From: Actinomycetes bacterium
GTDB taxonomy: Bacteria; Actinomycetota; Acidimicrobiia; Acidimicrobiales; Acidimicrobiaceae
NCBI GenBank assembly: GCA_021810525.1
Contig: JAJZIP010000006.1
Span: forward strand, 1-47,288
Reading direction: 5' to 3'
DNA: 47,288 bases
Part shown: one piece after another, positions 27,765 through 33,389 of the stretch
How positions within the stretch are numbered: the first letter of the stretch is position 1
How the letters are laid out: each line of letters opens with the position of its first letter
Made by a program: the position numbers and the translations under genes
Notes under the pieces: generated by a model
The model's database searches: none
Told to the model about the DNA's origin: nothing
Seen by the model: only the letters and a program-made list of their open reading frames with translations

Positions 27765-28787
27765 GGTTGATCGACAGAGGAGCGCAAACCACTCCCTTGC
27801 GGAAGGGGTCAAGCTGGCCAAAATTGTAGCACCCGGGAATTATGCTAATATCATGGTCCGTTTGCCAGAGACTCTACCCAGACCTAAAACAGCAAGAGAT
27901 TCTCTCCCGGCACTGCAGTGATGCCCGTTTCGTTTACAACCTCGGTCTCGAAGAGAGGAACCTTTGGCACAAAGACAGAACTGCCAAGATCACTTATCTC
28001 ACCCAAGCCAGAGCTAGCAGAAGCCCGACAGGCATTTCACTGGCTTAAATAAGGCTCGTCTGTAGTCCAACAAGCTGCCGTAAGAGATCTAGACAAAGCC
28101 TTTCAGAGCTGGTGGAAAGGTTCTCATCGCAAACCCACGTGCTGAAAAGCAGGAATGTGGGATTTTACATACGAGACCTCTCAGCTGGGAAACTCAACCG
28201 CAAGTGGGGAGAAGCCCAGTCGCCAAGTCTGGATGGGTCCGGTGTTCAGACTTACTCGTAGCTGGGCAGAGATAGATGCCTCTAGCTCAGCCAGAGTAAC
28301 CCTCGACCGCTCGAATAGGCAGGTGAGTTTCACTTCTCTTGCTAACTCTATAGAGAGAACTCCAACCGGAGCTCTAATAGGTAGCGACATGGGAATAGCT
28401 TTGAGCATCACGACTTCCGATGGTACAGGGCTCCACATGCCAAAGCTTCTTAGCCCCGGAGAGGCGCAGAGAAAGCGGAGGTTGCGGTAGGCAAAGCCAG
28501 CCTTCGTGTCGTTGCCGTAGCAGTAAACCCCCGTTTTACATCACAGACCTGCATACAGTTGTGGAAACACTTCAGCCAAAAACCGCGAGGGTCAAGCGGT
28601 ATTCGTCTGTACCTGTGGCTACTGAGCTAATGCCGACGTAAATGCAGTACAGAACATACTCGCCGCAGGACTTGCGGGCACAGCGTGTGGTGGAATACCC
28701 GATTGCGGGCCCAGTTAAGCGCGAACCATCCGAGTGGCTTAGGTTACTCGGGAATCCCCTTACGTAAGGGAAGGGAGGATGTCAACG
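27765..28787 (+). mobile_element. Decayed TnpB-only element, copy B
   Basis: The left end GGTTGATC (TTGATC 27767-27772) and an AAACC-hairpin block correspond to copies A and C. The right end has the palindromic CCCTTACGTAAGGG hairpin and GGATGTCAA (to about 28785). It sits between sdhB and the RibD-like gene and runs into the last codons of the latter, which is on the opposite strand. Confidence 0.7.
27870..28720 (+). pseudogene. tnpB: tnpB remnant with frameshifts and a deletion (copy B)
   Basis: Pieces of TnpB are recognisable in several frames. These are the N-terminus (RLYPDLKQQEILSRHCSDARF), a middle part ending in RuvC-I (GSDMGIALSITTSDG, about 28390) and KLLSPGEAQRKRRLR, then a jump to the zinc-ribbon region and ADVNA near 28630. 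Compared with copy A, the segment holding RuvC-II is missing, and there are at least three frameshifts or stops. It is not functional. Its RuvC-III aspartate codon is intact (GAC), which is informative for copy A. Confidence 0.8.
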
Positions 28788-29481
28788 AGTATCTGCAGAA
28801 GAGATAGCTCTGGATTTCGAAGTGGGAGGAGAGCGTCATCTCAATGGGAGAGGCGTCTGCGATGTTGGCAAAGCCAGTGGGAGTGCCATTGCCTATACGC
28901 GGCGAGATAGTGAGACAGAGCTCGTCGATGAGCCCTTGTCGCAGAAGCTGTGAGAATGTAGCCGGTCCCCCCTCAAAAAGCAGCGTCCGGACACCTTCTG
29001 AGCGGAGGTGGGCGAAAAGCCCGGGAAAGTCTACCGAGTCCTTCCCGAAGGCCACTACGGTTGCCCGGGGGGAAAGCCTCGCGATTTTTGACCGCTTTGC
29101 TTCAGCAGTATTCGAGTTTGTGACAATGAGCGGAGACGTCGCCTCGTCCAAAAATGAGGAATTGTCAGAAATGTCGAAGGAGTTGGTAACGATTATGAGC
29201 AAGGGAGCCGTGGCTCTGGTCGAGCTTGGTTTTGGCATTGAGTAGGCCTCAACACGGGCTGTGGAGGCCCCGACCAGGATCGCGTCACAATTCGCCCTCA
29301 GGAAGTTGAAGACCTCTCGATCGGGTGGGCCCGAGACACCGCCGCTTTTACCGGCAATCTTTATTACTCCGTTCGGAGTCGTGGCAAAGTTTGCCCGTGT
29401 CCAGGGCCTTTGGTCAGGAACTTGAGAGGGAATGGGATACGCCTCTGCGAGTCTGGCAACGTCCAATAATGGCTCAGTCAT
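28744..29481 (-). CDS. RibD C-terminal/pyrimidine reductase family protein
   Basis: 245 residues with the dihydrofolate-reductase-like fold of the RibD C-terminal domain. Visible are RPWTRANFATTPNG near residue 25, CDAILVGASTAR, and VRTLLFEGGPATFSQLLRQGLIDELCLTISP. Without the deaminase domain, such actinobacterial proteins are annotated as pyrimidine reductase family members; the substrate is uncertain. The final 13 residues (LTSSLPLRKGIPE) and the stop come from the right end of TnpB element copy B, so the native C-terminus has been replaced. No rib genes lie nearby. Confidence 0.8.
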   Translation of the reverse strand: MTEPLLDVARLAEAYPIPSQVPDQRPWTRANFATTPNGVIKIAGKSGGVSGPPDREVFNFLRANCDAILVGASTARVEAYSMPKPSSTRATAPLLIIVTNSFDISDNSSFLDEATSPLIVTNSNTAEAKRSKIARLSPRATVVAFGKDSVDFPGLFAHLRSEGVRTLLFEGGPATFSQLLRQGLIDELCLTISPRIGNGTPTGFANIADASPIEMTLSSHFEIQSYLFCRYSLTSSLPLRKGIPE

Positions 29482-29692: not shown

Positions 29693-30718
29693 ATGATTGA
29701 GTTCAGTGAGATCAACCTTGAGGCCAAGGCGCCTGATGTCACAGACGGTGGGAGATGGAAAAGCATTCCTCTGGTGCAAAGGATCGACCCGCTCACGCAG
29801 AAAACTTGCCGGATTCTCACCGGTGTCAAACTCCAGCCGGAAAATCCACCCGATCTTGCTGAGATAACCAACGCTAATGGATTTTGTCCATTCTGCGACG
29901 AAGTGTTTGAAAGAGTCACGTTTGAGTTTGAACGGGAAATAGTCCCCTCTGGTCGAATAAGGAGGAACAAGGCCGCGATAGTGCCAAACATAATGGCTTA
30001 TTCTGGCTACTCTTCGGTGGGAATATACGACACCTCAAGGCATTTCATCAAACTTTCCGAGTTCACTGCCGACCTGTTGGTCGATGCATTTTGGGTCATG
30101 GTTGACCACGCTAAGGCTGTCCGACGTGCACGGCCTGAGCTGACCTGGTCGTCTATAAGCGCGAACTATCTCCCGTCATCAGGATCTTCAGTGGTTCATC
30201 CTCACCTGCAGTCGTCTCACGATTTTCAACCGATGCTCGGTCAGAAAGAATTAGTAGGGGCGGCAAAGAGGTACTTCTTGGAGACATCTAGATCATACTT
30301 TGATGACCTTGTCGCTCAAGAAAAGAATAGTTCACGATACATCGGTAGGACTGGTTCTGTCACTTGGCTGACTCCTTTTGCCCCCCGAGGCTTCCAGGAG
30401 ATCTGGGGTGTAGTCGGCACGGCTGGCGATCTCGTGGAGCTCGGGGAGGAGCATCTAGAAGACCTTGCTGATGGATTGGTTCGAGTCTTTAGGTACTACG
30501 ATGCGCACAACTTTTCCGCTTTCAACTACTCCATGGCCGGTGGTGGCCCGGACTCTTCAAGCATTGGATTCAGGCTGGTGTTCCGAATCTTGGTCAGGTC
30601 GAATCCTGACAGGTATTATCGTAGCGATGTAACCTATTTCGAACGCCTGCTCGATGAGCCGCTGCTTGACATATCCCCAGAACAGGTGGCTAGCGACGCG
30701 CGTGAGTTCTTCAGCTGA
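29693..30718 (+). CDS. Galactose-1-phosphate uridylyltransferase-like nucleotidyltransferase
   Basis: 341 residues from the ATG at 29693 behind GGAGGAGG; the frame is open six codons further. It belongs to the HIT-superfamily GalT branch. A zinc-type CPFC is present near residue 67, and the catalytic HPHLQ in SSVVHPHLQ is near residue 170, with the histidine accepting the nucleotide. GalT normally exchanges UMP between UDP-glucose and galactose-1-phosphate. With no Leloir genes nearby, a different hexose-phosphate or adenylyl substrate is possible. Its end overlaps the convergent ferric-reductase-like gene by 8 bp. Confidence 0.8.
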   Translation: MIEFSEINLEAKAPDVTDGGRWKSIPLVQRIDPLTQKTCRILTGVKLQPENPPDLAEITNANGFCPFCDEVFERVTFEFEREIVPSGRIRRNKAAIVPNIMAYSGYSSVGIYDTSRHFIKLSEFTADLLVDAFWVMVDHAKAVRRARPELTWSSISANYLPSSGSSVVHPHLQSSHDFQPMLGQKELVGAAKRYFLETSRSYFDDLVAQEKNSSRYIGRTGSVTWLTPFAPRGFQEIWGVVGTAGDLVELGEEHLEDLADGLVRVFRYYDAHNFSAFNYSMAGGGPDSSSIGFRLVFRILVRSNPDRYYRSDVTYFERLLDEPLLDISPEQVASDAREFFS

Positions 30719-31430
30719 TTTTCTGGACCCTGGGTTCCCGATTTCTTTGTTTGGCCGTGTACCTTGAGTAGCCGAGGACGATCAACGCCAGCGCAGTGAC
30801 GAGATACATGTAGGCGAGAGCAGAGCTGTCTGTGCCTGCAAAGACAGCGTGTATCCAGATCAGGGCCAGTGAGATCACGCTGAATCGATGGACGGTCAGC
30901 CAGCCGCGTCTCCCGAAACCAATCCTCAAGCGTGCCGAAAGGCCTGTCAAAAGTCCCGCATAGAGTCCTATGGTCCCAAGAGCTACTGCGAGCGGCCTGT
31001 ACCCGGAACGGAACGGTACAAAGGCTCCAGCCACGCCTACATTCGCGTAGTTGTCGAGAATTATCGACATGATGTGTAGAGCCGAAAAGCTCAACGTGAA
31101 AACAGTCAGAAGGGTGTGAAATCGCATCCTGGTAATTGGATGGAACAGTTTGAGCCGATGCTTCCAAGGGTGCGAGAGCAGGAGTCCTGTCATTGCCAGC
31201 AGCCAAAACAAGAGATAGGCGGTTATACCGCTTGCTCTGGCTAGAAGCCACGGTGCCATCTTTGGCTCGTCAAGAGTGTGCGATTCAAAGATGGTGAGCA
31301 GATATCCAATTCCGATTGCATTTGCCGTTACTATCAGAACCGTGAAGAAGTCGCTCAGAAGTGAGCGCGGACTATCCGCATCGGTGTACTCGTCGACAAA
31401 GTCATCCCTCATAGCACGGGGCTTAGTCAC
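30711..31430 (-). CDS. Ferric-reductase-like transmembrane protein
   Basis: 239 residues, GTG start, with about six helices of the ferric reductase/YedZ (MsrQ) type. Heme-binding histidine pairs are visible in two helices: HTLLTVFTLSFSALH and HRFSVISLALIWIH, each with two histidines 13-14 apart. There is no FAD/NAD domain, so electrons must come from another protein or the quinone pool. It lies 42 bp downstream of apbE in the same direction, and the pair suggests electron transfer to covalently flavinylated extracytoplasmic proteins. Confidence 0.85.
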   Translation of the reverse strand: MTKPRAMRDDFVDEYTDADSPRSLLSDFFTVLIVTANAIGIGYLLTIFESHTLDEPKMAPWLLARASGITAYLLFWLLAMTGLLLSHPWKHRLKLFHPITRMRFHTLLTVFTLSFSALHIMSIILDNYANVGVAGAFVPFRSGYRPLAVALGTIGLYAGLLTGLSARLRIGFGRRGWLTVHRFSVISLALIWIHAVFAGTDSSALAYMYLVTALALIVLGYSRYTAKQRNREPRVQKIS

Positions 31431-31472
31431 GAGCTGCCCGCTTTCTGGTGTCTGTTCTTTGAGGGTAACTCA

Positions 31473-32459
31473 TTAGTGGCTGTTCCAGATTATGTAGGGG
31501 TCAGCTAAGGAGTTCCTTAAAATTTCGCCGCGGTCGGTGATCCATGCTGCTGCGACTCCGCGAAATTCCGAGAACTCCTTGATACTTTCCTCGCCGACAA
31601 GGAAGAGTGATTTTGACCAGATTTCGGCCAAAGCAGGATCCTTGGCTATAACCGTTACGGCCGTCAATCCATTTCCACCCGGCTCTCCCGTTCTGGGATC
31701 GATTATGTGGTGTCTTAGAACTCCATGCTGCCACCAGCTGCGTACTGCGGTGGATGAGGTGCAAACAGCGATGTCGGACAGTCGCAGTACCATGAGCGGG
31801 TCACCTTCCGGCTGAAATGGATTCTGGACCCCTATGTTCCAGCCGGTCCCTGTCGGGCCACTCCCGGAACAGATGCAGTCTCCGCCAGCTTCAATCAAGA
31901 AATTTGGCGTCTCTGACTCGATGGCTTTTGCCGACCACCTAAGGGCAAGCCCTTTGCCTATGCCGCCTAGATCTATCGGGAACTCTCCAATGCGCACCTT
32001 GCCATCTGATTCGAACCCGGGCTGCCAGTCGTTCAATGCCTGGCGAGTTCGGCCACTGGGGATGGACCGTGAATCCGGCAGACCGGCAGTCCAGGAATTT
32101 ACATATCCAAGTGACGTCAGGTCCCTGAGGATCCGTGGATCGAACAGCCCCTCAGTCAACTTGTAGGCATCGTATGCTTCGGAGATCGCCGAGAAGCACA
32201 GCTGAGCCACTGAGTGCCAGTCGGAGGGAGATTGATTTAGTTTTGACAGGTCAGTGCTTTGGAGAAATCTCGAGCAGGATGCTTCAGTCTCAGAGAAGAC
32301 CTCCCTGACCCTCTCCAGAGCTTTCTGGAGATGACCCGCTGCTAAGGGAGGGGCGGGGCATACCGAAAGGATTACCGAAGTGGCCATGGCACTAAATGAG
32401 CCAGATATTTGGGGGACCCCGGCATTATCCGAGTGCACGAGACGCCCCAGTAGAGCCAT
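31473..32459 (-). CDS. apbE: FAD:protein FMN transferase
   Basis: Up to 328 residues. ApbE attaches FMN covalently to Ser/Thr in target motifs of exported or membrane proteins, using FAD. The signatures are DLGGIGKGLAL, EAGGDCICSG and HHIIDPRTGEPG. No signal peptide is evident in the ORF as called. The farthest start overlaps the upstream small gene by 35 bp; an in-frame ATG at 32387 (MATSVILSV) is an alternative. It is flanked by two exported Ser/Thr-rich proteins and a ferric-reductase-like protein. Confidence 0.93.
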   Translation of the reverse strand: MALLGRLVHSDNAGVPQISGSFSAMATSVILSVCPAPPLAAGHLQKALERVREVFSETEASCSRFLQSTDLSKLNQSPSDWHSVAQLCFSAISEAYDAYKLTEGLFDPRILRDLTSLGYVNSWTAGLPDSRSIPSGRTRQALNDWQPGFESDGKVRIGEFPIDLGGIGKGLALRWSAKAIESETPNFLIEAGGDCICSGSGPTGTGWNIGVQNPFQPEGDPLMVLRLSDIAVCTSSTAVRSWWQHGVLRHHIIDPRTGEPGGNGLTAVTVIAKDPALAEIWSKSLFLVGEESIKEFSEFRGVAAAWITDRGEILRNSLADPYIIWNSH

Positions 32460-32883
32460 GAGTGGGTGGCGGAGCGGTCACCACCCGTCTGGGAGCACTG
32501 GGCGGGCTCTGAGCCGGGGTCGAGGGAGCTTGTGTCCGTGCAGTACTAGGCGAATTGATGTTCGGTGCACCTGACCCGGCAAAAGCTGTCGCACCAACAA
32601 GCTCCTGTATTTGGGCTCTCAGCTCAGCGATCTGCGATTTGAGATCGCTGACCCTTTGTTGCTCCTGTTGCTGCAATGGACTGAAGGTGGTAGGTGTCTG
32701 ATTTGTCGTTGTCGTAGCGCCAGCAGGGTTTGTAGCTGTTGTATTTGATATAGGGTAGCTGTGGTTTATCACTCTGGACACGTAGATCGTCGCTACAACG
32801 CCGACCCCCGTCGATAGCGGGTACAGCACGACCAGTGGGACGAGCTTTCTCAGTCTTGTCTGCTGCTCCTTAGAGAGATTCAT
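32425..32883 (-). CDS. Small membrane-anchored protein with coiled coil and Ser/Thr/Pro-rich tail
   Basis: 152 residues, not recognised as a known family. A short basic cytoplasmic N-terminus is followed by one membrane helix (about 14-36). Then come a Thr-rich linker, a heptad-like segment (LQQQEQQRVSDLKSQIAELRAQIQEL, about 80-105) and a Pro/Ser/Thr-rich tail ending THGSTGASRALG. The tail carries TGAS, which resembles the ApbE target motif. It precedes apbE, overlapping its ORF, and starts 14 bp after the next upstream gene. Function unknown; a redox carrier or scaffold is inference. Confidence 0.6.
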   Translation of the reverse strand: MNLSKEQQTRLRKLVPLVVLYPLSTGVGVVATIYVSRVINHSYPISNTTATNPAGATTTTNQTPTTFSPLQQQEQQRVSDLKSQIAELRAQIQELVGATAFAGSGAPNINSPSTARTQAPSTPAQSPPSAPRRVVTAPPPTHGSTGASRALG

Positions 32884-32897
32884 CCCGGGGCTAGCTG

Positions 32898-33380
32898 TCA
32901 GTTGTCGTTCTTGCTGGGAACCAAGACCGCTGAAGAAGTTGTTCCAGCGTTGCCCGAGACGGAGGTGGTGCCGTGTTCGCCAGAGTCGTCAGACGAGCCG
33001 TCATCAGACTTCGCTGAGCTTGCGCCAGTGGTTGCGTTGGTCGGCGGAATAGAGCTTGTTGTCGTGGGATTTCCGGAAAGGAAGGCTGCGTTGTTGTTTG
33101 CGTTTGCAACCGCAGCTGGTGAAACCCTGCTCGCTAGGGTGGACTTGGCCGAATTCAGCTCCTGCTGCAACTTCGCCGCCTCGTTCGAGAGCTGATTGAT
33201 CTCGGCAGAAGTTGGATTTGAAGTCGTTGTTGTGGAAGAGGTGGTAGTCGGCGCAACCTGGCTTGTCGGAAGCGACGGGGGTGCGGTCACGGTTACCGCG
33301 TGTATGGCCGTCGCTGATCCTGCACCAATGCCTATTGCTGCTGCCAACTTGATAAAGCTTGCTCTCGATATCAATTTCAT
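32898..33380 (-). CDS. Exported Ser/Thr-rich protein with coiled coil
   Basis: 160 residues from the ATG at 33380. A signal-like N-terminus (MKLISRASFIKLAAAIGIGAGSATA) is followed by a Thr/Ser-rich linker, a heptad region (INQLSNEAAKLQQELNSAKSTLASR) and a low-complexity acidic and Ser/Thr tail. It contains NATTGAS, a match to the loose ApbE pattern D/N-x-x-T-G-A-S/T. AGGAGG directly touches the ATG, so translation may instead begin at the TTG of codon 3 (33374), which has a normal six-base spacing. First gene of the apbE group. Unrecognised family. Confidence 0.6.
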   Translation of the reverse strand: MKLISRASFIKLAAAIGIGAGSATAIHAVTVTAPPSLPTSQVAPTTTSSTTTTSNPTSAEINQLSNEAAKLQQELNSAKSTLASRVSPAAVANANNNAAFLSGNPTTTSSIPPTNATTGASSAKSDDGSSDDSGEHGTTSVSGNAGTTSSAVLVPSKNDN

Positions 33381-33389
33381 CCTCCTCAA

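Follow-up and report, generated by a model that had tools for sequence, protein, structure and literature searches.

Four co-directional genes are located on the minus strand between positions 33380 and 30711 of the window, the 47,288-nt stretch of DNA from an Actinomycetes bacterium (Acidimicrobiaceae) that was analysed. Their order is P1-P2-apbE-heme protein; P1 and P2 are separated by a 14-nt gap, P2 overlaps apbE, and a 42-nt gap lies between apbE and the heme protein gene. An initial annotation had recognised here an ApbE, a ferric-reductase-like protein and two exported Ser/Thr-rich proteins with TGAS motifs. All four genes were confirmed, on stronger grounds than originally claimed. The features are as follows.

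32898..33380 (-): P1, exported/anchored Ser/Thr-rich protein, 160 amino acid residues from the ATG at 33380, kept in 7 same-genus loci
33135..33200 (-): short heptad repeat of P1, I64-L85 (163-aa numbering), coiled-coil candidate with invariant L67, L74, L78 and L85
33018..33038 (-): NATTGAS of P1, candidate FMN acceptor site (last Ser), with TGAS invariant in 7/7 loci and synonymous codon variation
32425..32883 (-): P2, 152 amino acid residues, with one N-terminal transmembrane segment (~residues 14-36), a heptad run and a Pro/Thr/Ser/Ala-rich tail, overlapping the apbE start
32440..32460 (-): HGSTGAS near the C-terminus of P2, candidate FMN acceptor site (last Ser), with TGAS invariant in 7/7 loci and a C-terminal [ST]x[AG][ST] at the order level
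31473..32459 (-): ApbE-family flavin transferase, assigned from PF02424, comparison with PDB ApbEs, a structure model and a residue census
30711..31430 (-): MsrQ/ferric-reductase-like membrane protein with six hydrophobic segments and four invariant His, for which two b-hemes are expected

The open reading frame list starts P1 at the TTG at 33389, hence the 163-aa numbering beside the 160 residues from the ATG. A GTG at 32438 is a possible alternative to 32459 as the start of apbE. Near the operon, positions 28744-29481 (-) encode a RibD_C-domain protein (PF01872, E=7e-29), which is a possible flavin-biosynthesis neighbour.

Proteins of the gene cluster

P1 and P2 each possess a hydrophobic N-terminal stretch, heptads spanning some three turns and a Ser/Thr/Pro/Ala-rich tail, and they show no evident similarity to each other. 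The coiled coils proposed for both proteins were traced to short heptad runs (I64-L85 in P1 and V78-L95 in P2) and are candidates. No family scored above the cut-off for P1 or P2 in Pfam/NCBIfam searches, which included PF04205 (FMN_bind). FlxA, TraB, CpoB and Mito_fiss_reg were rejected, as their matches were below the cut-off and fell on coiled-coil or low-complexity parts. The N-terminus of P1 (33290-33380) looks like those of clade C FMN_bind proteins (L110, L113 and L114), with a hydrophobic stretch followed by IH/LH; P1 may be a descendant of an FMN_bind protein after domain loss.

The window ApbE matches PF02424 with E=5.9e-47. Its structure model has a pLDDT of 78, and the closest fold is that of Listeria FmnB (7esb, TM 0.78). 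Similar to the FmnB/ApbE flavin transferases 7esa, 6nxi, 4xgv and 4ifu, it has the same fold (TM ~0.74-0.78) and keeps the catalytic Ser and His (S235 and H251). Different from them, it contains Glu and Lys (E279 and K283) in place of the metal-site Asp and Thr of other ApbEs and lacks a lipoprotein signal.

The heme protein has no Pfam match of its own. Related heme proteins match PF01794 (Ferric_reduct), with E=4e-9 for L039 and E=0.001, which is below the cut-off, for L050. H105, H119, H181 and H194 are invariant in the 11 aligned homologues. The structure model of the window heme protein has a pLDDT of 45 and is too poor for use. Of the features of an MsrQ-like system, the gene cluster contains a PF01794-type heme protein beside apbE, but no FMN_bind protein.

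The initial statement that an FMN-binding-domain protein is missing here holds for P1 and P2 as well as for the genome assembly, which is 90.7% complete and in which searches for FMN_bind, NqrB/RnfD and DUF2271 found nothing. A hidden substrate of these types is accordingly unlikely in the assembled part, though one may be encoded in the remainder of the genome. FMN_bind was present in 24/60 relatives and in 0/9 genomes of the genus, and 27/51 apbE-bearing relatives were without it.

Conservation of TGAS and a second apbE locus

Both motifs had been likened to the ApbE target pattern D/N-x-x-T-G-A-T/S. The likeness stands for NATTGAS of P1 and for the T-G-A-S part of P2, but P2 starts with His. 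Among the same-genus loci, the D/N position of the canonical motif varied in P1 (N, S, Y or H) and was H in every P2. Thus, the upstream D/N is not conserved, and only the T-G-A-S part of P2, whose first position is not D/N, agrees with the strict seven-residue pattern.

Chance matches had been regarded as plausible. In this case, low-complexity tails rich in Ser, Thr, Ala and Gly would contain TGAS by composition and keep it by common descent. The evidence from a single genome is indeed weak, as shuffled tails gave [ST]GA[ST] in 12% (P1) and 7% (P2). Likewise, a degenerate DNA pattern for TGAS/T had ~450 matches genome-wide, no more than in the reversed control. As the initial annotation had proposed, conservation of TGAS was then checked in homologues next to apbE, and the motif was kept at the same place in 7/7 same-genus loci. 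In their alignments, T-G-A-S is invariant in P1 and P2, the flanking tail columns vary in length and sequence, and the TGAS codons differ synonymously by third-position changes. Conservation amid such variable tails removes chance as an explanation.

Besides the window copy, the genome contains one other apbE. Directly upstream of it is the gene of P3, an unrelated-looking protein of 118 amino acid residues with one transmembrane segment that ends in AVSATGAS; downstream are genes for a PF01794 protein and a NuoF-like protein. The P3 ending was kept across the genus, with SGAS once instead of TGAS. The heme protein of this locus (L039:6830-8035) carries a Ser/Thr-rich C-terminal extension of ~170 residues. 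Three TGAS proteins in one genome adjoin both apbE genes. This arrangement, the invariance of TGAS in divergent tails with synonymous change, and the comparisons of 129 loci with shuffled tails and other ORFs given below all contradict chance and make it extremely improbable.

A constraint at the DNA level, imposed by the overlap with the apbE start, was also considered and rejected. P1 has no such overlap, and all six Ser codons occur at the terminal Ser, so the stop/start overlap does not explain this residue.

ApbE clades and slot proteins across the order

The ApbEs of the order comprise an FMN_bind-associated set C and tail-associated sets A, B and B2. In a quick tree, set C was one side of a branch with a support of 85, and the four labels needed 4 changes versus 62 when shuffled. 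Coordinates showed that the FMN_bind matches adjoin set C ApbEs. Profile searches found one heme-protein family near 129/143 tail-type and 16/17 FMN_bind-type apbEs. Given that the heme partner is the same and that the same slot upstream of apbE is used, the tails seem to have taken the place of the FMN_bind protein. No signal peptide was visible by eye in any of the three ApbE sets, the window ApbE included; its lack therefore does not separate the tail from the FMN_bind systems.

A residue census (Vc ApbE numbering for residues 241, 257 and 285) showed that in tail-type ApbEs the catalytic His257 was kept in 143/143 and Ser241 in 138/143, with Thr in the remaining 5; the GGD Asp and the GK Lys were also kept. 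The catalytic/metal Asp285 was E in 88/92 of clade A, with Asp retained in the other 4/92, N in 51/51 of B and B2, and D in 17/17 of the FMN_bind-type ApbEs. Thr289, kept in the FMN_bind-type ApbEs, was often Lys in the tail-type clades. In E. coli ApbE, the equivalent D280 binds metal site 1, and the authors of that study argued that Mg2+ is needed only at metal site 2 for FMN transfer (PMC4767422). On that argument, the replacement of Asp by Glu or Asn may alter rather than abolish activity, and the frequent Lys in place of Thr may contribute to such an alteration. These substitutions, together with the loss of the motif Gly with distance, would also fit an ApbE of changed chemistry that recognises the tails and loads their C-terminal Ser/Thr with a nucleotide or flavin moiety other than FMN. 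The retained His, Ser, GGD Asp and GK Lys, the Asp kept in a few clade A enzymes and a heme partner shared with flavin systems speak against this possibility, which we consider unlikely.

A slot protein could be identified at 129 loci of sets A and B; there, apbE is directly preceded by a gene for a short, anchored, Ser/Thr/Pro/Ala-rich protein. Slot proteins were picked by position, hydrophobic stretch and tail composition, rules that are blind to the motif but favour Ser/Thr-rich tails. With counts that cover the loci where an ORF passed these rules, with approximate ORF starts, and that are not independent events since the sequences are related, [ST]-x-[AG]-[ST] was found <=1 residue from the C-terminus in 82/129 slot proteins versus 31/3444 other ORFs; among other similarly rich tails it was found in 11/589. 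In clade A outside the family, the pattern was <=1 residue from the end in 47/69 versus 3.3 expected by shuffling (maximum 10 in 2000), and within the last 12 residues in 62/69 versus 13 expected. Strict [ST]GA[ST] decays with distance and was found in 17/69 distant clade A loci; the Gly is often R, S, T, K, H or N in distant homologues. Typical endings are HATTGASGAP, TSSHGS, TNGSR, SGGS and TTKAS. The conserved order-wide signature is thus broader than TGAS, namely [ST]-x-[AG]-[ST] located at the C-terminus or close to it. Moreover, the window locus is not an isolated case: the genome's second apbE and loci throughout the order show the same phenomenon, and similar endings (TGGSHP, SSGAS and SSRGS; inspected, no count) accompany related ApbEs from other classes of this phylum.

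P1 and P2 of one genome share a local ATTxAS signature in other genera too, for example PAATTKAS/PAATTRAS in L049 and SATTGAS/HATTGAS in L050, which would be the expectation for tails read by a single enzyme. P1 homologues from distant genera lack the motif and keep an acidic tail. Alternatively, P1 and P2 could be scaffolds or docking partners whose unmodified motif binds ApbE or the heme protein, the flavin being soluble or on another protein. With a short chain, a membrane anchor, a coiled coil and a conserved peptide at the C-terminus, such proteins resemble docking proteins, and both the degenerate motif and its loss from the acidic-tailed P1 homologues agree with such a role. However, the conserved peptide, which nearly always finishes with Ser/Thr, is similar to an ApbE acceptor, and the known ApbE substrate domains were not found in the genome, which leaves docking a rather doubtful explanation.

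Other variations were also observed. Proteins at the P1 position of L094, L122, L156, L169 and others end in long Asp/Glu runs without the motif, and these runs are possibly metal-binding. A few slot tails have Cys-flanked ends in place of [ST]x[AG]S (CQTSKC in L081, CGSKPC in L129 and CSGSKC in L164). In L093, L080 and L090, response-regulator or histidine-kinase-like genes adjoin the distant apbE loci.

Proposed function and comparison with known systems

Actinobacteria are known to have MsrQ-like clusters that combine apbE with FMN_bind, the usual carrier, and in some cases with NuoF-like genes (PMC8238504). Similar to these flavinylation clusters (Meheust et al. 2021, PMC8238504), the loci described here have apbE beside a six-helix bis-heme ferric-reductase-like protein and, at the second locus, a NuoF-like protein. 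Different from them, the FMN_bind slot is filled by short disordered tails, and the ApbE lacks a signal peptide and has an altered metal site. The loci are probably an Actinomycetota variant of MsrQ-like flavinylation, a transmembrane electron-transfer unit in which anchored disordered tails replace the FMN_bind domain.

Flavinylation sites in unstructured parts have been described for the C-terminal extension of FMN_red and the insert of Flavodoxin_4 (Huang et al. 2024, PMC11334425). Like those substrates, the tails carry a flavinylation-motif-like sequence in an unstructured region and are encoded beside apbE; unlike them, no folded flavin-binding domain beside the site was found in P1, P2 or P3. 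ApbE needs no more than a terminal peptide of seven residues; removal of the peptide's Asp has a minor effect, and Gly-to-Ala or Ala-to-Val changes leave about half of the labelling (PMC12052999). The tails resemble this synthetic tag, in which a short terminal D-x-x-[ST]-G-A-[ST] is enough for labelling, but they are natural, lack the Asp and in many homologues have a relaxed Gly (PMC12052999). No report on fold-free natural flavin carriers, flavinylated disordered proteins or Acidimicrobiia ApbE was found in the open-access literature searched.

The suggestion of a new kind of flavin carrier is upheld insofar as the motif is kept beside apbE; it needs widening, given the broader and non-local signature, and FMN attachment itself we infer. 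In its broadest form, towards which the balance leans slightly, this reading holds that such tails are phylum-wide natural flavin carriers without a flavin-binding fold. FMN would be on a C-terminal Ser/Thr of anchored disordered tails, placed there by ApbE clades with an active site (E/K or N for D/T) that has shifted toward loose [ST]-x-[AG]-[ST] peptides. Against the proposal that the tails replace the FMN_bind domain stand the missing canonical Asp of the motif, the Glu or Asn at the metal-site/triad Asp of ApbE, the few slot proteins without the [ST]x[AG][ST] ending, and the predicted location of the tails outside, given an ApbE that lacks a signal peptide. Moreover, the sites with a replaced Gly (R/S/T/K/H/N) are only putative ApbE substrates.

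If the tails are flavin carriers, ApbE would use FAD to form a phosphoester bond between FMN and the Ser that closes T-G-A-S in each of the P1 and P2 tails. As no signal peptide is visible in ApbE, attachment would take place in the cytosol, before or during export, an assumption that is also needed for the FMN_bind-associated ApbEs of the order. The N-terminal helices would anchor P1 and P2 in the membrane, leaving the tails outside, and the short coiled coils would perhaps pair the two proteins and so bring two FMN close together. The heme protein would pass electrons through two bis-His hemes across the membrane to the tethered flavins. By swinging, these flavins would reach an acceptor on the outside, for example Fe(III) or a different oxidant. 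The NuoF-like protein suggests NADH as the donor at the second locus; given that this protein is absent from the window locus, quinol is the likelier donor there.

If this reading is correct, an extracytosolic electron carrier would be possible without a folded cofactor domain, with the flavin tethered on a flexible string. The tails would also provide a large natural sequence set for flavin-tag technology, and comparison of their ApbEs would be a test, in a natural setting, of how the specificity and the metal site of the enzyme change along with its substrate. Finally, surveys based on FMN_bind and on ApbEs with signal peptides would have missed part of the flavin-based electron transfer of Actinomycetota.
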